A DNA stretch of 64,000 bases from an uncultured Oscillospiraceae bacterium (GTDB taxonomy: Bacteria > Bacillota > Clostridia > Oscillospirales > Acutalibacteraceae), in the NCBI GenBank assembly GCA_900545625.1, contig UQZS01000001.1, positions 62,001 to 126,000 on the forward strand. Reading direction: 5' to 3'. This document shows positions 10,691 to 20,680 of this stretch, piece by piece (within the stretch, counting starts at the first letter, position 1; each line of letters opens with the position of its first letter). A program made the position numbers and the translations under genes. The notes beneath the pieces were generated by a model. The model had not been told where the DNA came from. It worked only from the letters and a program-made list of their open reading frames with translations, and ran no database searches.

Positions 10691-11695
10691 TTACAGCTGA
10701 TAAAAACCGACTTTACGCATGACTTTGCGCAGCGTTTTATTCGCAACTCGCGCTGCCTGTTCCGCGCCTTTTACCATGCATTCATTCAAATATGCCTTAT
10801 CCGCGATCAAACGGTCAAAAGTCTCTTTGACGGGCGCAAGCTCCGCCACGACCGCCTCGGCAACAGCGGATTTAAAGTCGCCATATCCCTTGCCGGCAAA
10901 TTCTGCCTCGATTTCATCAAAGGTCTTTCCTGTGCAGCAGGCATAGATGCCTATCAGATTGTTTACGCCATCCTTGCCCTCTGCATAGTACACACGTGCC
11001 TCGGAATCGGTCACAGCACTTTTGATTTTACGCACGATTGTATCCTTGTCGTCCAACACGGAAATGAACGCCTTAACGTTGGTGTCGGATTTGCTCATTT
11101 TCTTAGTGGGCTCCTGCAGCGACATCACGCGCGCGCCCGCCTTGCCGATAAAAGGTTCGGGCAGACGGAACGTCTCGCCGTACAACCCATTAAAGCGTTC
11201 GGCAATATCGCGCGTGATCTCCAAATGCTGCTTTTGATCTGCGCCGATAGGCACATAGTGCGCCTGATAGAGCAGGATATCCGCCGCCATAAGCGTTGGG
11301 TAGGCAAAAAGCCCGACGTTGACGTTTTCGGGGTGTTTTTCGCTCTTATCCTTAAACTGCGTCATACGCGCCGCCTCGCCGAACTGCGTATAGCAATTGA
11401 GTACCCAGGCAAGCTGTGCATGCGCATTCACATGGCTCTGCACAAAAACGGTGTTTTTTTCGGGGTCAAGACCGATCGCCAGCAGCAGCGCATACATTTC
11501 AAGCGTCCTGCGGCGCAGCTGTGCGGGTTCGGGCCGCACGGTAATGGAGTGAAGATCCGCTACCGCATAGTAGCAGTCATACTCTTTCGCCATTTCTTTC
11601 CAATTCTTCAGCGCCCCGAGATAATTGCCCAAGGTTGGCGTGCCTGTCGGCTGGATCGCGCTTAATACCACTTTTCTTTCGCTTTGTGTTTCCAT
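10691..11695 (-). CDS. trpS: Tryptophanyl-tRNA synthetase
   Basis: Charges tRNA-Trp. The 334-residue length is normal. The HIGH-like class I motif is PTGTPTLGNYLG near the N-terminus and the second signature is KKMSKSD. The frame stays open upstream, but the ATG at 11695 has GAGGA 8 bases before it. No T-box-like leader is seen; the transcript leader is only about 30 bases. It is the first gene of a two-gene unit with the ybaK-type deacylase. Confidence 0.96.
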   Translation of the reverse strand: METQSERKVVLSAIQPTGTPTLGNYLGALKNWKEMAKEYDCYYAVADLHSITVRPEPAQLRRRTLEMYALLLAIGLDPEKNTVFVQSHVNAHAQLAWVLNCYTQFGEAARMTQFKDKSEKHPENVNVGLFAYPTLMAADILLYQAHYVPIGADQKQHLEITRDIAERFNGLYGETFRLPEPFIGKAGARVMSLQEPTKKMSKSDTNVKAFISVLDDKDTIVRKIKSAVTDSEARVYYAEGKDGVNNLIGIYACCTGKTFDEIEAEFAGKGYGDFKSAVAEAVVAELAPVKETFDRLIADKAYLNECMVKGAEQAARVANKTLRKVMRKVGFYQL

Positions 11696-11729
11696 CAATA
11701 TCTTCCTCTTTTCCATAATACGGAAATAT

Positions 11730-11758
11730 AGTATACCATCATCTGCAAATTTAATCAA
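11730..11758 (-). promoter_or_regulatory. Promoter of trpS
   Basis: On the minus strand: TTGATT (11753-11758), a 17-base spacer, TATACT (11730-11735). Confidence 0.7.
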
Positions 11759-11798
11759 TAAAAACGGATACATATTCTATTGTTTGGCAGATTTTTCA

Positions 11799-11827
11799 TT
11801 GCTTTTACAAAGTTTTGGGTTTATAAT
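11799..11827 (+). promoter_or_regulatory. Promoter of ilvA-ridA
   Basis: TTGCTT (11799-11804), a 17-base spacer and TATAAT (11822-11827), about 40 bases before the ilvA start. Confidence 0.6.
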
Positions 11828-11866
11828 ATCAGTTAAATTGTTTACGGAAAGAAGAGAAATGTGCAT

Positions 11867-13066
11867 ATGCTGACGCTTGATAAGATCTACCACGCCTCCT
11901 ATCAGCTGAAAGACGTGATTCGGCGCACGGACATGATCATGGCACCCGACATCAATCCCGATTGTGAGATCCATCTGAAAACAGAAAATCTGCAGAAAAC
12001 AGGTTCTTTCAAAGTACGCGGCGCAGCATACAAAATTTCACAGCTCTCGGACGAAGAAAAGAAAAAAGGCGTAATTGCCTGCTCGGCGGGCAACCATGCA
12101 CAGGGCGTGGCGCTTGCCGCGACCAAGAACGGGATCAAATCGCTGATCTGCCTGCCTGACGGTGCGCCGATCTCCAAGGTGGAAGCCACGCGCAAATTCG
12201 GCGCGGAGATCTGCCTCGTTCCCGGCGTATATGACGACGCATACAATCGTGCTTTGCAGCTCAAAGATGAAAAGGGATACACCTTTATCCACCCGTTTAA
12301 CGACGAAGACGTCATTGCCGGTCAAGGCACCATCGGCCTTGAGATTTTGGAGCAGCTCCCCGATGTGGACGTCGTGATCGTCCCCGTCGGCGGCGGCGGG
12401 CTGATCTCCGGCGTTGCATATGCTATTAAAGCACTGAACCCGCAGGTCAAAGTCTACGGCGTGCAGGCGGACGGTGCACCCAGCATGCTGCGCTCTATTG
12501 CCGACGGCAAGATCGAGGCGCTCGACGAGGTCTCGACTATTGCGGATGGTATCGCTGTAAAAGAGCCGGGCGATCTCACCTTTGCCCTTTGCCAAAAATA
12601 TGTTGACGGCATTGTTTCGGTTTCTGAGGACGAGATCGCTGCTGCAATTTTGGCACTCATTGAACAGCAGAAGCTGATTGCAGAGGGCGCAGGTGCAGTA
12701 TCTGTCGCTGCTGCTATGTTCAATAAAGTAGATCTTAAAGGCAAAAAGGTTTGCTGCCTGGTTTCAGGCGGTAATATTGACGTGACGATCCTGTCGCGCG
12801 TGATCAAGCGCGGTCTGTTGAAGTCCGGGCGCACATTCTCCATGACGGTGGAATTGCTTGACAAGCCCGGCCAGCTGCAGGATGTGGCGGCGGCGATCGC
12901 CGCTGAAGGCGGAAATGTCATTTCCGTGCATCACGAGCGCGCTTCGGAAGGCTCTGATATCAACGGCTGCTACCTGCGTCTGGTTATGGAAACGCGTAAT
13001 TTTGAGCACATTGAATCCATTAAAAACGCGCTGATCGCGCGCGGATACAAAGTGCAGGCGTATTGA
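11867..13066 (+). CDS. ilvA: Threonine ammonia-lyase (threonine dehydratase)
   Basis: PLP enzyme that turns threonine into 2-oxobutyrate and ammonia. The PLP lysine lies in KTGSFKVRGA (about residue 50), the phosphate loop is VGGGGLISG, and the C-terminal 75 residues form one ACT-like regulatory domain (TVELLDKPGQLQDVAAAI). This one-ACT, about 400-residue layout matches the TdcB/clostridial type rather than the longer two-ACT E. coli IlvA. The ATG at 11867 is favoured over a GTG at 11861 because GAAGAG lies about 10 bases ahead. ridA follows by 30 bp. Confidence 0.93.
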   Translation: MLTLDKIYHASYQLKDVIRRTDMIMAPDINPDCEIHLKTENLQKTGSFKVRGAAYKISQLSDEEKKKGVIACSAGNHAQGVALAATKNGIKSLICLPDGAPISKVEATRKFGAEICLVPGVYDDAYNRALQLKDEKGYTFIHPFNDEDVIAGQGTIGLEILEQLPDVDVVIVPVGGGGLISGVAYAIKALNPQVKVYGVQADGAPSMLRSIADGKIEALDEVSTIADGIAVKEPGDLTFALCQKYVDGIVSVSEDEIAAAILALIEQQKLIAEGAGAVSVAAAMFNKVDLKGKKVCCLVSGGNIDVTILSRVIKRGLLKSGRTFSMTVELLDKPGQLQDVAAAIAAEGGNVISVHHERASEGSDINGCYLRLVMETRNFEHIESIKNALIARGYKVQAY

Positions 13067-13096
13067 TGCAAATTTTTCTCTGAAGGAGTGTTTGAT

Positions 13097-13471
13097 ATGA
13101 TCAAAACTTTACACACGGACAATGCCCCGGCTGCGATCGGGCCGTATTCGCAGGCGAAGATCGTCAACGGTATTCTGTATGCCTCCGGCCAAATTGCGAT
13201 CAATCCTGCTTCCGGTGAAGTAGAAGCAGATACGATTGAGGGACAGACGCAGCAAATCTGTGAGAACATCGGTGCGATCTTAGAAGCGGCAGGCACAGAT
13301 TTTTCCAAAGTGATTAAGACAACTTGTTTTTTAAAAAACATGTCCGATTTTGCCGTGTTCAACGGCGTTTACGGCAGCTTTTTCACCTCAAAGCCCGCTC
13401 GTTCCTGCGTGGCAGCCGCTGCACTGCCAAAGGATGTGCTTGCGGAGATCGAGGTCATTGCCGAAGTATAA
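13097..13471 (+). CDS. ridA: RidA-family enamine/imine deaminase
   Basis: Hydrolyses reactive enamines/imines such as the 2-aminocrotonate released by threonine dehydratase. The 124-residue protein carries the family marks GPYSQA, LYASGQIAINPASG and the arginine in KPARSCVAAAALP (Arg that holds the substrate carboxylate). The ATG at 13097 has AAGGAG 8 bases upstream; a GTG nine bases earlier overlaps that site. Its place directly behind ilvA fits its detoxifying role. Confidence 0.95.
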   Translation: MIKTLHTDNAPAAIGPYSQAKIVNGILYASGQIAINPASGEVEADTIEGQTQQICENIGAILEAAGTDFSKVIKTTCFLKNMSDFAVFNGVYGSFFTSKPARSCVAAAALPKDVLAEIEVIAEV

Positions 13472-13493
13472 GGCAGCTCACGACAACAAAAAA

Positions 13494-13524
13494 CCGACAG
13501 TGCGTTTTGCACTGTCGGTTTTTT
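13494..13524. terminator. Bidirectional terminator between ridA and the amino-acid ABC ATPase gene
   Basis: Stem CCGACAGTGC (13494-13503) with GCACTGTCGG (13509-13518), loop GTTTT, flanked by six A on the left and six T on the right. It serves both converging units. Confidence 0.9.
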
Positions 13525-13542
13525 GTATGGCTTCTGTTGTAT

Positions 13543-14328
13543 TTACAATACCTTAGATAGAAATTCCTTCAATCGGTCGTTTTGCGGATGATTGAAGATC
13601 GCATCGGGCGTGCCTTCCTCTAAAATACGACCGTCGTCCATAAACAAAACGCGATCTGCCACCTCACGCGCAAAGCCCATTTCATGCGTCACAACGACCA
13701 TCGTCATACCGCTTTTTGCAAGATCTTTCATGACTTCCAAAACCTCGCCGACCATCTCGGGGTCGAGCGCCGAGGTCGGCTCGTCAAACAGCATGACCTC
13801 CGGCTGCATGGCAAGCGAACGCACGATCGCTACACGCTGTTTCTGTCCGCCGGATAGCTGCGAAGGATATGCCTCCGCCTTATCGGAAAGCCCGACGCGC
13901 TCCAAAAGCTCCATAGCGTTGGCTTTGGTTTCCTCTTTGATTTGTTTAGCAGACTTGATCTCGGCACCGTCCGATTTCCTGCGCAGTTTTAACTTGCGCA
14001 TCTGCTTTTTTGCAATATACTCGGGCGCAAGGGTGATATTCTCCAGCACGGTTTTATTATTGAACAAATTAAAATGCTGGAACACCATGCCCATTTTCTG
14101 CCGATGGACGTTGATGTCCACTTTCATATCCGTAAGATCCACGCCGTGGAACAGGATGCTGCCGGAGGTGGGATCCTCCATGCAGTTTAGGCAGCGCAAA
14201 AACGTGCTCTTGCCCGAGCCGGACGGCCCGATCACAACGACCTTTTCGCCCTTATGAATGGTGATGTTGATGTCCTTAAGGACATGCAGATCCCCGAAAG
14301 ATTTATTTAAGTTAACGACCTCGATCAC
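13543..14328 (-). CDS. Amino-acid ABC transporter ATPase (GlnQ type)
   Basis: ATPase of a polar amino-acid importer, 261 residues. Walker [10 protein letters not shown], signature LSGGQKQR, Walker B VMLFDEP, switch histidine in VVTHEM. Compared with GlnQ it carries an extra basic stretch of about 25 residues after the Q-loop region ([20 protein letters not shown]), which makes it about 20 residues longer than usual. Its start overlaps the permease gene by 17 bp. Substrate unknown beyond amino acids. Confidence 0.92.
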
Positions 14329-15031
14329 TTTTACGCAGCCTCCTCTCCACGAGTTTAATGAGCGCGGTGATCAGCAGCACCAGCACAATATAGATCAGCG
14401 CCATGACAAGATACGGCACCATGAACTCATAGGTGCTTGTGCCGATTTTGCGGAACGCGACATACAAATCTGTTGCGCCGACGAAGCTGACGACAGAAGT
14501 TTCTTTGACAAGCGTAATAAATTCGTTGCCGAGTGTCGGGATGATGTTCTTGATCGCCTGGGGAATAACGATCTTCATCATCGTCGTACTAAAGCTCAAG
14601 CCGACGGACCGACCGCCCTCCATCTGCCCGGGGTCGACCGACATGATGCCGCCGCGCATGATCTCTGATATGTACGCACCGGAATTCATGCCGAACACGG
14701 TGATCGCGACCGCCACGGAGGAGGCATTTATGTCGAGCAAAGGCAGTGCAACATAATAAAACAGCAAAAGCTGCACCACCATGGGCGTCCCGCGGAAAAA
14801 ACCGACATATACGCCGCAAATGGCGTTAAGCACCTTCGGCAGGCGCTTATATTTCGGCATGACGCGCACAGCGGCAATCAGCGTACCGATAATTATGCCG
14901 ATAATAAGGCCCAGCACTGCGATTTTAACCGTGTTCTGTAAGCCTGTTAAAATATCGGATATATAGGCGTCCGCGCTGCCTCCCTGGAAAAGAGATATAA
15001 ATTTTTCTACCCTTTGACCGAAGTTATCCAT
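14312..15031 (-). CDS. Amino-acid ABC transporter permease
   Basis: Membrane subunit, 239 residues, of the His/Glu/Gln/Arg permease family. Marks: [20 protein letters not shown] at the start of the fold, [19 protein letters not shown] and the ATPase-contact loop [21 protein letters not shown]. It lies between the ATPase gene (17-bp overlap) and the binding-protein gene, separated from the latter by an 83-bp gap that holds a long hairpin. Confidence 0.92.
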
Positions 15032-15052
15032 GATCCAAATCCTTTTGCCGCA

Positions 15053-15096
15053 CGTATAACAATAGCCTCACCGAACGGTGAGGTTATTGTTATACG
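15053..15096 (-). terminator. Long hairpin between binding-protein and permease genes
   Basis: A 20-base stem (15053-15072 with 15077-15096, loop GAAC) with one imperfect pair. It is placed after the binding-protein stop and before the permease start on the minus strand. No clear U run follows, so it is more likely a partial terminator or an RNA-stabilising 3' structure that raises the level of the binding protein over the membrane parts. Confidence 0.6.
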
Positions 15097-15114
15097 CTAT
15101 AGAGCTTTCAAGTT

Positions 15115-15999
15115 TTACGCAACACCGTTGACGGAATCCGCAATAGCCTGCGCGGGAGCTGCGTCGATCACGACATAGTCCAAATTGCCGTTGACCATAG
15201 CCTGTACCGCCAAAGCACCGCTCTGATTATCAATCGGTGTGACATGCAACGCAGTGTACTCATAATCATCGGTAGACTGCACATATTTCTGCCCTGTGGT
15301 GCCGGTCTGGTAGCCGATCCGCACACTTTCGTCAAAGCTGCGAAGGATCTCCAAAACTTCATCCGCCGTAGTGCAGTTGTCAAAGGTCGTATCATCTGCC
15401 GGTACGATCAGCTTCTGCGAAGCCTGATAATACGACTCCGAGAACGTAACGACTTCTTCGCGCTCCTCGCTGATCGTCAAGCCTGCCATGGCGATGTCGC
15501 ATCTCTGTGTACCGACGGAAAGACAAACAGCGTCAAAGTCCATATTCTGAATGACAAGTTCTTTGCCGAGTTCCTGTGCGAGCAGGGCCGCGATTTCCAT
15601 ATCTACGCCGAGGTAGTTGGTGCCTTCCGTGTACTCGAAGGGCGGGAATTCCGCATTGGTCGCGACGACAAGCTGATCCTTGCTCTCGTCAAGCGCAGCC
15701 GAGGTCACAGGAGAAGGCGTACCGTCACCGAAATACTTGTTGAAGATCTCTTCCAGCTGGCCGTTCGCCTTGATCTCCGCGATGAACGCATTGACCTGCT
15801 CAAGGAGTTCGGGCTGGTTCTTATCTACGCCGAACGCATAGTACTCCTCGGTCAATTCAATGTCAATGACTTTTACCAGCGCTGCATTCGCAGCAGGCGT
15901 CGTGGTATCATTCGCTGTGTCGCTCCCACAGGCGGCAAAACAACCGACGACCAGTGCAAGTGCGAGCAAAACAGACAAAGCTTTTGTTACGATTTTCAT
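15115..15999 (-). CDS. Amino-acid binding lipoprotein, apparently circularly permuted
   Basis: Extracytoplasmic binding protein of the importer, 294 residues. A lipoprotein signal ends in FAAC (cysteine 24; VVGC at 20 is an alternative). The canonical start of the family 3 fold (DQLVVATNAEFPPFEYTEG, then LGVDMEIAALLAQELGKE) appears only at about residue 108. The protein ends at the strand DYVVIDAAPAQAIADSVNG, after which relatives normally continue with a last strand and two helices. That missing part (KVIDIELTEEYYAFGVDKNQ through EEIFNKYFGD) sits at residues 43-92, ahead of the fold, joined by a linker GTPSPVTSAALDESK. The gene is intact and first in its operon. Confidence 0.88.
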   Translation of the reverse strand: MKIVTKALSVLLALALVVGCFAACGSDTANDTTTPAANAALVKVIDIELTEEYYAFGVDKNQPELLEQVNAFIAEIKANGQLEEIFNKYFGDGTPSPVTSAALDESKDQLVVATNAEFPPFEYTEGTNYLGVDMEIAALLAQELGKELVIQNMDFDAVCLSVGTQRCDIAMAGLTISEEREEVVTFSESYYQASQKLIVPADDTTFDNCTTADEVLEILRSFDESVRIGYQTGTTGQKYVQSTDDYEYTALHVTPIDNQSGALAVQAMVNGNLDYVVIDAAPAQAIADSVNGVA

Positions 16000-16029
16000 G
16001 GTTTGTTCCCCTTTCTGAGATTATAAGCC

Positions 16030-16058
16030 ATTATACACCCGCTTAAAGCAAAAAGCAA
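16030..16058 (-). promoter_or_regulatory. Promoter of the amino-acid ABC operon
   Basis: On the minus strand: TTGCTT (16053-16058), 17 bases, perfect TATAAT (16030-16035), about 30 bases before the binding-protein start. Confidence 0.7.
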
Positions 16059-16084
16059 GAAAAACGTATATTTATGCAGAGATT

Positions 16085-16579
16085 TTATGTGTCCCCGTGT
16101 GTTTCGCCGGAATCAGACCCTTGAGAACGGCGTTTGCGGAAAATCACAATCTTGCTGAACACGTAATTGGAAAGCACTACAAGGATCTGTGCAACAGTTT
16201 TCGTCAAAAATTCGCCGAGCGGCAAAGTGACTGTAGATAAACTTACGACCCAACGCCCCGCCCCCAGCAGATCCATGCCAACAAACATTACGCCGAGTTC
16301 CAAAACCAAGGAAAACAACCGTGCACCGACAAACAGAATAATTTCACGCAAAACGGCACGCGCGCCGCGGCTTTTGCTTGCAAACACCCACACACGGTTG
16401 ACGATATAGGCGAAGCCGACGGCTACGATCCAGGCGATGACCGTTGCAGGCGAATAGGAAAATCCAACTGTCTTGCAAAGGAAATAAACAACATAGTTGA
16501 CAAGTGTCGTCAGCCCGCCGAAGATCACATATAATATCAATTCTTTATGCTTTTTAAGCAGACTGCGAACTTTTTGCAT
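16085..16579 (-). CDS. GtrA-family membrane protein
   Basis: A 164-residue protein with four hydrophobic segments and the family opening LILYVIFGGLTTLVNYVVYF. The mid-part NRVWVFASKSRG and the end VFSKIVIFRKRR are typical of GtrA, thought to help move lipid-linked sugars across the membrane. GtrA proteins usually pair with a polyprenyl-phosphate glycosyltransferase; such an enzyme is encoded at 35269-36252, some 19 kb away. It lies 17 bp after the sugar symporter gene on the same strand. Confidence 0.85.
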   Translation of the reverse strand: MQKVRSLLKKHKELILYVIFGGLTTLVNYVVYFLCKTVGFSYSPATVIAWIVAVGFAYIVNRVWVFASKSRGARAVLREIILFVGARLFSLVLELGVMFVGMDLLGAGRWVVSLSTVTLPLGEFLTKTVAQILVVLSNYVFSKIVIFRKRRSQGSDSGETHGDT

Positions 16580-16596
16580 ATTTCGTCTTGCCTTTC

Positions 16597-18078
16597 TTAT
16601 GCTTGCACCTTTGTCTCATCCTCGGTTTGTGCGGCGGCGCGGCGTTCGGCGAGCTCGCGCTCGACACGCGCTTTTTGTTCTTTGGAATAGCGGATGCACA
16701 AAAACGGGATCAAATACAATGCGGAGCCGAGCGCAGGCAGCAGCATGAACAGCGGCCACTGTGCGCTGTAAAAAATCTCAGGCTGCCCTGCATCGCCCAA
16801 ATCGGCATTAAAACCGAGCGCGGTGAGCACCAGGCCGCTGGTCATCAGCTTGAGCGCATCCGTCAGCTTGTTGGTGAGGTTCTGCAAAGAGTTGCTGATT
16901 CCCTCCGTGCGCTTACCCGTTTTCCATTCCACATAATCCACCGCGTCACAGAGAATGGAACGCTGAGCAATACCAACCATATTGACGGGGACGGAGGAAA
17001 TGGAGATGAGAAGCACCACCAGCAGCATCTGCGGCAGCGTTTGAAACCCGACAAAATACGCTGCGACGCGGAAAACAATATTCATCAGCTGCGCTAAAAT
17101 TACAATATTCCGCATGCCGCCGATCTTATCCGACAGCTTGACGGCAAAGAACATGCTTACGGCGGACAGCACGCTGACTAAGATCCCGTAGTAAAACTGC
17201 ACGGTCTCGCCGTTGACCACGGTGTCCCCGATCTGCACGGAGACGCAATATTGGAAGAAATAGATCTGCGGCACCGCGCCGTTGAGGAAATTTAAGATCT
17301 GCGCAAGCAGCAGCAGGATCAAGATTTTGTTGTGCCGCAGCAGCGCCAGGTCTTGCAACAGAGACTGCTCGCGGCGGTTCTCCACATAAGCAACGCGTTC
17401 TTTTGTTTTGCTTGCAAGAATCGATAAGCATTCGCCGCCGAAGCCGAATACGATACCGAACAGCAAAAACAGCGTTTTTTCACTGATACCGATCGCTTCG
17501 CGCGCGCCCATGATAAGCGGCACAAGACTCGTAACGCCCCACGCCGCACCGACACCGATATTCAGCCACTGCGAAACGCGGGAACGCTCATGTGGGAGCG
17601 GCGAGATCAGGGACATCATGCCCCAAAGGGCAACATCCTGAAACGAATAGGTCACATCCCATGCAATGTAGACACAAAGCAGGATCACAAGCGCCGCCGT
17701 CTCCCCAACGCCAAAGTCCACGAACATCAGCGCTGTCAGCGCACCGATGGCAAGCGGCAATTTCCCGAGATACGGGTGAAGCTTGTTACCGTCTTTGCAT
17801 TTGCGGCGATCCACTATAGCGCCGACGATGGGATCATTGATCGCATCCCATATACGGGTGAAGCCCGTAAGAAAACCGACGCGTGCAGGCGAAATGCGCA
17901 AAATGTTTGTGCAAAAATAAAACAACCACTGCGAGACGAATACATACGCCATATTTTGCCCCGTCAGCGCGGCGGAATACGCCAGCAGCTCACGGTTCGG
18001 CACACAGCCTTCTTCAGCCTCCTTGCTGAAAGGGTTCCAAAAGCCTTTTTTCGTTTTGGTCGCTTTAGATGATTGCAT
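16597..18078 (-). CDS. GPH-family sugar:cation symporter (MFS)
   Basis: A 493-residue, roughly 12-helix transporter of the glycoside-pentoside-hexuronide:cation group (MelB/XynB-like). Marks: GFTRIWDAINDPIVGAIVDR with the cation-site acidic residues, the LPLAIGA stretch, and DAVDYVEWKTGKRTEGI in the second half. Cytoplasmic basic and acidic tails are present. Probable substrate is a glycoside or oligosaccharide; no glycosidase is adjacent, so the sugar remains unknown. Confidence 0.88.
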   Translation of the reverse strand: MQSSKATKTKKGFWNPFSKEAEEGCVPNRELLAYSAALTGQNMAYVFVSQWLFYFCTNILRISPARVGFLTGFTRIWDAINDPIVGAIVDRRKCKDGNKLHPYLGKLPLAIGALTALMFVDFGVGETAALVILLCVYIAWDVTYSFQDVALWGMMSLISPLPHERSRVSQWLNIGVGAAWGVTSLVPLIMGAREAIGISEKTLFLLFGIVFGFGGECLSILASKTKERVAYVENRREQSLLQDLALLRHNKILILLLLAQILNFLNGAVPQIYFFQYCVSVQIGDTVVNGETVQFYYGILVSVLSAVSMFFAVKLSDKIGGMRNIVILAQLMNIVFRVAAYFVGFQTLPQMLLVVLLISISSVPVNMVGIAQRSILCDAVDYVEWKTGKRTEGISNSLQNLTNKLTDALKLMTSGLVLTALGFNADLGDAGQPEIFYSAQWPLFMLLPALGSALYLIPFLCIRYSKEQKARVERELAERRAAAQTEDETKVQA

Positions 18079-18118
18079 GGCAGCCTCCGTTTCTCCCGTT
18101 TAACCCATAATCTTAACT

Positions 18119-18616
18119 TTAAATAAACTTTATACGCTTGTCGGCTTGCAAAAGGCAGACAGCATGTGCGGCAATCCCCTGCTTTGTCCCCGTAAAACCA
18201 AGCCCCTCTTCCGTCGTTGCTTTTACGCTTACCGCTTCAAGCGGCAATTTGCACACCTGTGCAATATTTTTCCGCATATCTTCTATATAAGGCGCAAGCT
18301 TTGGTGCTTGCGCGAGCACGGTCGCATCAATATTCCCGACCGTAAACCCATTTTTTCTCAATAGACAAATGACTTCCTGCAGGAGCATCAGACTGTCTGC
18401 ATCTTTATATCGCTTGTCTGTGTCGGGGAAATGTTTTCCGATGTCTCCGAGCGCCGCTGCGCCCAAAAGCGCATCCGAAATCGCATGCAGCAAAACATCC
18501 GCATCGGAATGGCCCAAAAGTCCAATATTGCCGTTCGGGATCTCCACGCCGCCAAGGATCAGCTTGCGCCCCTCCACTAATTTATGTACGTCGTAGCCGT
18601 GTCCGATACGCATCAT
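18119..18616 (-). CDS. ispF: 2-C-methyl-D-erythritol 2,4-cyclodiphosphate synthase
   Basis: Fifth step of the MEP isoprenoid pathway. The 165-residue protein has the metal-ligand motif GHGYDVH at the start, [14 protein letters not shown] (second histidine/aspartate) and [11 protein letters not shown] near the end. The ATG at 18616 overlaps the ispD stop (ATGA) and has GGGAGG 8 bases upstream, so the two are translationally coupled. Confidence 0.96.
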
Positions 18617-19356
18617 GGCTGTTTCCTCCCTTCTAAGATCCCTTCGGCGATCCAAATGTCTTCCGGTGTTGTGATTTTGATATTTTCATAGCTGCCTTCG
18701 ACCATGTGCACCGGCACGCCCGCCGCTTCCAGCAGTTTGCAGTCATCGGTAAACAGGGCGCTGTCCGGCACTTCGCGCGAGGCACGCAAATAGATTTCTT
18801 TAGCAAACACCTGCGGCGTGTGTACCGCCCAAAGCGTGCTGCGGTCGGGGGTATCCACGATCACGCCGTTTTCATCCACTACTTTTACGGTATCTTTGAT
18901 ACGAACGCCTGTCGCCGCTGCACTGAACCGAAAAGCCGCCTGAATGGTATCTGTCAATATCCTGTCGGTCACAAGCGGGCGTGCGCCGTCGTGGATGGCA
19001 AGAAATTCGCTTTGTGCGTCGCAGCGCTCTACCGCAGCAAAAACGCTTTCCTGCCGCGTATCGCCGCCGCGCACGATTTCCCTGACCTTACGCGCCCCGG
19101 CGCCGCGCAGCAGCGCTGCCATTTGCGGAATATCCTGCTCACGCGCGGCAATAACGATCTCTTCCACGAGCGCGCATGCTTCAAACGCGCGAACCGTACG
19201 CAAAAGCACAGGGGCGCCGTCAAGCTGCAAAAATTGCTTATTGACGCCGCCCATGCGTGTAGAATTCCCTGCGGCGACCAGAACAGCCGATACAAACGGA
19301 CGCACAGAAGCCGCGGGAATATTCTCTATATTTTGTTTTTTAGGATGCATACGCAT
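18613..19356 (-). CDS. ispD: 2-C-methyl-D-erythritol 4-phosphate cytidylyltransferase
   Basis: Third step of the MEP pathway: CTP + methylerythritol phosphate. Motifs: [13 protein letters not shown] (nucleotide loop), [22 protein letters not shown] and the C-terminal [20 protein letters not shown] then [14 protein letters not shown]. The N-terminus has a short extra stretch of about 20 residues (MRMHPKKQN and on), so the true start is slightly uncertain. Coupled to ispF by a 4-bp overlap. Confidence 0.95.
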
Positions 19357-19405
19357 AGAAAACCCCCGCAGGAAAATTGAGCTACGGGAAAGCCCTATAC
19401 CTATC

Positions 19406-20680
19406 TTATACCTTTTCCGTCATTTTTTCAAGTGTTGCAAGACGAATTGCAAGACAAAGCACCTCGACTGCCTTTTTAAGCTCTTCAATGGATGGATACG
19501 TCGGCGCAATGCGAATGTTGCGGTCTGCTTTGTCCACGCCGTAAGGATAAGTCGCGCCGACGGGTGTGAGCACCACGCCCATTTCCCGGCAAAGCTCGCC
19601 GACGCGCTTCGCACTGCATTTCGTGGTGTTTAGGCTGATAAAGTAGCCGCCGTTGGGTTCCGTCCAGCGTGCCAAATCGTTTTCACGCAGCTCGCGGTCA
19701 AGCGCATCTAGTACAATGCGGAATTTCGGCGCAATGATCGCGGCATGCTTTTTCATATGCGCCTGCACGCCCTCCGCGTTTTTCAAAAACTTTACATGCC
19801 GAAGCTGGTTCATTTTGTCATAGCTGATCGTCTGCATGGCAAGCCGCGCACGGATGGCACGGATATTGTTATCCGATGCGGCAAGTGCCGAAACACCTGC
19901 ACCCGGGAACGTAATTTTGGAAGTCGAGGTAAACTCGACAAACATATCCTCGCTGCCGTAAGGCTTGCACGCCTCAAAGATATTCAGCAGATGATCCGGA
20001 TGGTCGCTGAGATCATGGACAATATAAGCATTATCCCAAATCACGCGGAAATCCTCAGCCGCAGGCTTTAACGCCGCCAGCGCACGGACCGTGTCATCCG
20101 AATAAGTGATGCCGTCGGGATTCGAGTATTTCGGCACGCAGAACATGCCCTTGACGCTTTCATCTTTGACCAATTCTTGGATCTTTTCCACATCGGGACC
20201 GTTTTCGGTCATTTCCACATTGAGCATTTCAATGCCGAAGTGCTCGCAAATGGTGAAGTGGCGGTCATATCCGGGCACATTGCATATAAATTTGATCTTC
20301 CCCTGCTGCATCCAAGGGGTACTGCCCGCCCCCTTCGTCATACACTGGGCAATATAGTCAAACATTAAATTCAGGCTCGAAGCGCCGCCGATGATCACGT
20401 TTTCGGGTGAAACCTCCATAAGCTCCGCAAACAAAGCGCGGCACTCCGGGAGTCCTTCCAAGGCGCCGTAATTGCGGCAATCCGTACCATTTGCGGCTTT
20501 GCAGTCGCAAACACCGATGACCTCTTTCAGCATATCCATAGAAAGATCCAGCTGATCAGGTCCGGGTTTGCCGCGGGACATATCGAGCTTTAAATTCAGC
20601 TTTTTCATTTCCGTGTACGCCGCCTGTGCCGCTTGCTTTTCAGCGAGAAGCTGTTCGGCGTTCATCTCTGCATACTGCAT
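19406..20680 (-). CDS. PLP-dependent aminotransferase, class I/II fold
   Basis: A 424-residue aminotransferase of the less studied group related to MocR-type and aspartate aminotransferases (Aminotran_MocR-like). Marks: LDMSRGKPGPDQLDLS near the N-terminus, CDCKAANGTDCRNYG, VPKYSNPDGITYSD, the aspartate in VIWDNAYIVHDL and the probable PLP lysine in FTSTSKITFPGAGVSA. The ATG at 20680 is chosen because GGAGG lies 8 bases upstream; the longer frame would begin with a TTG inside that site. Amino-donor specificity unknown. Confidence 0.87.
   Translation of the reverse strand: MQYAEMNAEQLLAEKQAAQAAYTEMKKLNLKLDMSRGKPGPDQLDLSMDMLKEVIGVCDCKAANGTDCRNYGALEGLPECRALFAELMEVSPENVIIGGASSLNLMFDYIAQCMTKGAGSTPWMQQGKIKFICNVPGYDRHFTICEHFGIEMLNVEMTENGPDVEKIQELVKDESVKGMFCVPKYSNPDGITYSDDTVRALAALKPAAEDFRVIWDNAYIVHDLSDHPDHLLNIFEACKPYGSEDMFVEFTSTSKITFPGAGVSALAASDNNIRAIRARLAMQTISYDKMNQLRHVKFLKNAEGVQAHMKKHAAIIAPKFRIVLDALDRELRENDLARWTEPNGGYFISLNTTKCSAKRVGELCREMGVVLTPVGATYPYGVDKADRNIRIAPTYPSIEELKKAVEVLCLAIRLATLEKMTEKV

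Follow-up and report, generated by a model that had tools for sequence, protein, structure and literature searches.

How does the receptor of an importer come to carry its C-terminal part in front of its N-terminal part? This question is raised by a gene for a family 3 substrate-binding lipoprotein in the stretch of 64,000 nucleotides analyzed here (the window; contig UQZS01000001.1 of assembly GCA_900545625.1, positions 62,001 to 126,000, from an uncultured Oscillospiraceae bacterium), which heads a receptor-permease-ATPase operon of an ATP-binding cassette (ABC) importer. Our analysis points with good confidence to a working lipid-anchored receptor for polar amino acids that is circularly permuted, most likely through tandem duplication and subsequent trimming. 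In the following, N, M and C denote the segments of such receptors in their canonical order and L the linker that joins C to N. Segment C contains the last strand of lobe 2, the return hinge and two helices of lobe 1. The order of the window protein, C-L-N-M, is termed CP1.

The Pfam profile SBP_bac_3 (PF00497), in which the segments follow each other as N-M-C, matched the window protein with 115.5 bits (cut-off 26.4), split over two stretches. A phmmer comparison with the canonical arginine binder AncQR (4zv1) aligned residues 109-286 with residues 11-174 and residues 40-92 with residues 181-233. By homology the protein is a permuted relative of this family, with the order C-N-M. Profiles of the single segments, whose training sets include the window protein itself, scored 90 bits for C, 36 bits for the N-terminal strand (residues 109-126) and 80 bits for M, as compared to 7.0, 4.0 and 13.8 bits for the best of 2,000 shuffles of the protein. 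The equivalog model for GlnH (NF007029) gave 108.1 bits, which is under its curated cut-off of 303. The initial annotation, made from the letters alone, had described a lipobox, a C-type segment at residues 41-92, a linker and the N-terminal strand thereafter. All these elements were confirmed, with the lipobox ending at Cys24 and the linker at about 93-108. Its claim of a natural circular permutation is supported by the split Pfam match, the AncQR alignment and the homologues described below. The protein end that it quoted has to be corrected; the true end lies seven residues further on (DYVVIDAAPAQAIADSVNGVA).

Arg180, Gln231, Thr234, Thr235 and Asp279 do not vary among 59 chosen CP1 rows, and the matching residues are invariant as well in 26 chosen rows of the forms CP2 and CP3 introduced below. 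Arg180 and Asp279 align with the Arg and Asp of 4zv1. In amino-acid binders the conserved Arg binds the carboxylate and the conserved Asp the amine of the ligand; an amino acid would probably be bound between these two residues in the window protein. Cys159 and Cys167 (CLSVGTQRC, window 15499-15525) are the majority residues in the same 59 rows and might form a disulfide in lobe 1.

A homology search with the window protein returned the order C-N-M in 120/120 listed homologues (the best of 7,977 hits), and the same order is present in independent genomes including those of the isolates Dorea sp. 5-2, Blautia sp. Marseille-P3201T and Cuneatibacter caecimuris DSM 29486. The search for relatives of the same order that the initial annotation had proposed was thus successful, and a sequencing or assembly error, which would have undone the permuted order, is ruled out by these homologues and isolate genomes. 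The window gene is under purifying selection; for the linker, the ratio of nonsynonymous to synonymous substitution rates was 0.03-0.07 in three of seven comparisons and not computable in the other four. It is therefore hardly conceivable that the gene is an artefact of misassembly, a frameshift or a decaying fragment, against which the homologues, the isolates, the intact operons and the purifying selection all speak. Nothing about the window gene favours such an explanation, and a case of this kind is a CP1 gene in two frames in one genome (L052:5929-6887, Lachnospiraceae bacterium IMSAGC_019), due to a frameshift or a sequencing error.

To estimate how widespread the CP1 join is, a profile of the C-linker-N join (A4) built from 19 chosen rows was employed. 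In the class of G001 (the genome of L001, a close relative from a Clostridia bacterium), 51 of 341 sampled genomes, about one in seven, matched this profile at 1e-12. All 51 matches span at least 70 of the 73 profile positions without a stop, and 49 of them lie in frames of at most 317 residues, too short for a tandem. Ten matches were read, including the two longer frames, and all ten are permuted. In the order of G009 the join profile was matched in 61/396 genomes, 59 of them with the full join, and 26/150 genomes from the family of G001 contained a CP1 match of nearly full length. A strict phylum-wide draw at 1e-40 yielded 2/398 genomes, the search centre included; it scored at most six candidates in the genomes shown, and the class draw with the join profile gives the wider count.

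An AlphaFold2 monomer model of the window protein had a predicted local distance difference test (pLDDT) score of 91.8 and a predicted template modelling (pTM) score of 0.80, with a pLDDT of 96-98 for residues 41-92. The structure aligners used were sequential, and the alignment of the CP1 model covered residues 103-294, so that it does not show the placement of residues 41-92. Judged from homology, the confident model and this alignment, residues 47-92 are likely to complete lobe 1 together with residues 109-200. That they are instead swapped with a second molecule, the receptor being a swapped dimer, is very improbable: the model was made as a monomer only, but this monomer is confidently predicted, the segment included, and a linker of 16 residues makes a swap unnecessary. 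The protein would thus form the usual two-lobed trap with both hinge crossings kept, and the trap would close normally and deliver its ligand to the permease. The new chain ends are predicted to sit in lobe 2, flanked by the last helix of this lobe and the strand VKVIDI, and the lipid anchor would therefore shift from lobe 1 to lobe 2. The assumption of the initial annotation that the chain ends move within one lobe has to be corrected accordingly. The altered feature would be the tether, by which the lipidated Cys is connected to lobe 2 via about 17 residues.

The window protein represents one of at least four opening points among its relatives in the Clostridia. In CP2 (M-C-L-N; L057, L058, L069 and others) the chain begins at the strand IGVQxGTTG and ends past the first helix of lobe 2. 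One CP2 gene, L124, is cut off by the end of its contig. A search with L058 found the order M-C-N in 120/120 listed homologues (the best of 1,821 hits). CP3 receptors (L132-L134, L137-L143 and others) begin with DDLxGKxIGVQ and end at the first hinge (QVIIVKK), and their ends differ from those of CP2. In CP4 (n2-M-C-L-n1; L157, P0241, P0242) the first strand is relocated to the C-terminus (QLVVLTNVPFSPFEYLA), and the chain is thus opened in lobe 1. The 120 homologues listed for L157, out of 741 hits, comprised 116 CP1, two CP4, one N-M fragment and one canonical protein. Of 242 frames that matched the N profile in the examined loci (repeats included), CP1 was the commonest form with 117 frames, followed by 60 canonical and 53 CP2 or CP3 frames; the remaining ones were two CP4 (one gene counted twice), two tandems and eight partial or odd frames. 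Permuted receptors of the CP1 or CP3 form fused to a permease were found as well (L132-L134, L222, L242, L243); in these the point at which the receptor is suspended from the transporter may be unusual. Other linkers are present in the permease-fused tandems L076 and L079, which comprise two and three units; L079:533-3532, a single open frame of 1,000 codons, encodes a permease together with three binding domains that closely resemble each other. In one Lachnospiraceae genome, a very divergent second binding protein (L027:8067-8906), encoded about 1.7 kb away from the CP1 gene, appears to have the order M-C-N and to end at the first hinge like CP3, its M part being recognised by eye and not by profile. 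Borkfalkia-type genomes (L056, L062, L067, L159) carry CP1 genes with long joins of up to 67 residues, some with a weak C segment; the join of L056 includes a DYDGDG stretch that resembles a calcium site.

The joins provide evidence on the origin of these forms. Many CP1, CP2 and CP4 linkers from the window's side of the tree fit the pattern GDGTPxxVxSAxxDxSKxQLVVATN. With 48 CP1, 13 CP2 and one CP4 linkers, the likeness was 15.6 between CP1 and CP2 (shuffles 4.5, standard deviation 0.8) and 23.6 between CP1 and CP4 (shuffles 4.4, standard deviation 3.2), reached by 0/200 shuffles in either case; these shuffles do not allow for relatedness. CP3 linkers showed a weaker likeness (7.7 vs 3.6), and the linker of L161, a CP1 row of a side group, none (1.0 vs 2.4 in shuffles). 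In the canonical genes L123 and L164, the C-terminal tail matches the linkers of six CP1 neighbours (40.2 vs 4.6, 0/200), at a position where canonical genes have a median of three residues. The gap between M and C has a median of seven residues in CP2 and eight in canonical genes, so the seam is without a length scar. Each permuted form has a single foreign join and lacks a clear second scar, which fits a window of one unit placed on N-M-C-L-N-M-C. For the window protein, an in-frame tandem of this kind would have been trimmed at both ends to a single unit, with a linker of some 16 residues between the former chain ends and the new opening in lobe 2. Different trims would have led to C-L-N-M (CP1, the window protein), to M-C-L-N (CP2, with CP3 opened nearby at the first hinge) and to n2-M-C-L-n1 (CP4), and another trim to a canonical N-M-C gene that keeps leftover linker as a tail. 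This corresponds to the definition of permutation by duplication in PMC3320104. The linker likeness, the tails and the unscarred M-C seam thus lend support to the supposition of the initial annotation that a duplication followed by loss of the outer parts probably gave rise to the gene.

Furthermore, changes of order were traced on trees. Receptor trees were based on separately aligned segments (199 columns), with rows thinned by identity from 205 to 145 and then to 68, or from 224 to 65. Long, gappy or truncated rows were removed by name, eight of them ahead of the 68-row tree and ten ahead of the 65-row tree. L157 was counted as canonical in the 145- and 68-row trees and in the approximately unbiased (AU) tests on the latter, and as CP4 in the 65-row tree and its AU tests. 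The three trees required 14 (145 rows), 12 (68 rows) and 15 (65 rows) order changes. On the 65-row tree, a single clade was rejected for all permuted rows (p 5e-34), for all CP1 (2e-74) and for all CP2 (6e-5), as was one that unites the CP1, CP2 and CP4 rows on the side of the tree to which the window protein belongs (p 6e-7). A permease tree of 135 rows, which contains no receptor residues, required 16 order changes and again placed L161 and L136 among canonical genes and the canonical L123 and L164 beside CP1 genes. In the 65-row receptor tree, L123 and L164 lie inside a group with three CP1 rows (support 100/99). As canonical genes stand between permuted ones on both the receptor and the permease trees, permutation, or permutation and reversal, must have occurred several times; since reversals may be among the order changes, we claim several events and no number. 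Thus, the mapping of relatives on a tree, also proposed by the initial annotation, revealed several changes of order.

The similar linkers, the abundance of CP1 among the examined loci and the position of L123 and L164 within a CP1 group could also be explained by successive steps, in which a single ancestor first turned into CP1, whose further duplication later gave rise to CP2, CP4 and the canonical genes with a tail. A CP1 ancestor would, however, have to re-form the M-C seam across a signal peptide, whereas this seam carries no length scar in CP2, and we regard such a course of events as unlikely. Repeated trimming of tandems with the canonical order is the explanation that we prefer, and several observations weigh against it. 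The matches of 20, 396, 11 and 341 genomes, which were judged by frame length and of which a part was read, did not include a tandem with this linker, and the existing tandems are nearest to canonical genes. The gap between N and M has a median of 27 residues in CP1 as compared to 18 in canonical genes overall; it amounts to 24-31 in the canonical L055, L060, L123 and L164 near CP1. The linker type is not uniform: rows whose joins exceed 25 residues (five of CP1, four of CP2) were left out of the linker test, and the linkers of the CP1 rows next to L123 and L164 bear only a weak resemblance to CP2 linkers (5.6 vs 3.6, reached by 5/200). The linkers of the side-group CP2 rows L136 and L144 resemble those of the main CP2 (14.6 vs 4.3), which speaks against their separate origin, although L136 is separate on the trees. 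In the AU tests, whose groups were named after the trees had been seen, all CP3 as one clade were weakly rejected (p 0.012; 0.035 in the earlier tree), while neither the side-group CP1 rows L161, L247 and L249 (p 0.17) nor, in the earlier tree, CP2 without L136 (p 0.17) were rejected as one clade. The deep branches of the trees are weak. Finally, neither a permease nor an ATPase match lies within 1.5 kb of the CP3 gene L140.

A further question is whether the permuted forms were selected because an anchor on lobe 2 frees lobe 1 or suits docking. Permutation recurred, and tethering on the side of lobe 2, either there or at the first hinge, appears to be common to CP1, CP2 and CP3. A lipobox according to our own pattern is present in 103/104 CP1 and 48/51 CP2 or CP3 proteins. 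CP4, on the other hand, opens in lobe 1, and the canonical relatives have the same lipobox (52/57), a similar spacer (median 14.5 vs 11) and the same kind of operon, so neutral drift may equally account for the permuted forms. Overall, selection for the tether seems somewhat doubtful. Tentatively, and as a broader conjecture, the position of the chain ends could be mobile throughout the family, with tandems repeatedly trimmed to any window of one unit, giving at least four permutants and canonical returns, and with the suspension from lobe 2 kept because it suits a lipid-tethered receptor.

The features of the locus are compiled in Table 1. The importer is probably of the polar amino acid type, with scores under the equivalog cut-offs. 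The hairpin between the receptor and permease genes possibly reduces permease expression. Terminator-like patterns occurred six times in this region as compared to 3.3 times in shuffles, and Rfam at gathering thresholds had no match over positions 11000-20000.

Table 1. Positions of the receptor, its segments and neighbouring features in the window
Feature	Position	Strand	Basis or remark
Circularly permuted family 3 substrate-binding lipoprotein, CP1 order C-linker-N-M, 294 aa	15115..15999	(-)	
Signal peptide and lipobox, residues 1-24	15928..15999	(-)	sequence; model helix 3-21; Cys24 probably lipidated
Disordered spacer after the lipid Cys, residues 25-40	15880..15927	(-)	residues 25-30 pLDDT <50
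Segment C, residues 41-92, canonical C-terminal part	15724..15879	(-)	AncQR alignment; pLDDT blocks 96-98
Linker, residues 93-108, old C-terminus to old N-terminus	15676..15723	(-)	likeness to CP1, CP2 and CP4 linkers beyond shuffles
Segment N, residues 109-200, canonical N-terminal lobe 1 part and first hinge strand	15400..15675	(-)	conserved Arg180
Segment M, residues 201-294, lobe 2 and new C-terminus	15118..15399	(-)	conserved Gln231, Thr234, Thr235, Asp279
Permease, polar amino acid type (GlnP/EhuC-like), 239 aa	14312..15031	(-)	TIGR01726 77 bits, cut-off 42.2
ATP-binding subunit, GlnQ-like, 261 aa	13543..14328	(-)	overlaps permease end; NF007027 310 bits, under equivalog cut-off 379
Hairpin followed by T-rich run, possible attenuator	15066..15083	(-)	between receptor and permease genes; consensus match only

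The window protein resembles the family 3 binders of PF00497 (GlnH, ArgBP, ArtJ, HisJ) in its segments, in the conserved positions of Arg and Asp and in the type of operon, but differs from them in its order and, presumably, in the lobe that carries the anchor. Other binding proteins with a permuted chain have been described. According to PMC4990184, TpMglB-2 (Tp0684) of Treponema pallidum ('Type Ic / Cluster Bc') is a natural circular permutation of a lipid-tethered ABC binder, for which tethering is one suggested reason. Apparently unlike the window protein, it is described there as a sugar binder of the Type I / Cluster B class with a fourth hinge crossing and a single opening; the sequence and fold matches shown for the window protein are family 3 amino-acid binders, the fold lists being incomplete. 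The glycine betaine binders OpuAC and ProX are also permuted relative to each other, with a sequence identity below 24% among the proteins compared in PMC2395249, whereas differently ordered receptors share 57-72% in the pairs compared here. No OpuAC Pfam family was among the matches of the window protein up to E 1, and the likeness to OpuAC is confined to the fold order of the CP3 model. Fusions of receptor and permease of the GlnPQ type (6h30 with two binding domains; here L076, L079, L150) are tandem or fused domains of the kind required as a precursor; their domains are in canonical order, in contrast to the permuted permease fusions mentioned above. In the literature searched, by titles and abstract openings in partly covered lists, no natural permutant of family 3 was found.

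Profile annotation conceals the order of the segments, and those relatives whose source names were read are named plainly as transporter substrate-binding proteins. Whether natural circular permutants arise by duplication and trimming or by fission and fusion is still debated, as stated in PMC3320104. The receptors described here offer a natural test case for the emergence of circular permutations in proteins: canonical forms, four openings, linkers that resemble each other, tails that may be fossils, fused tandems and fusions with the permease all occur in one family, and the operon context permits an independent permease tree. In addition, the idea of tethering derived from TpMglB-2 becomes testable in a second fold.
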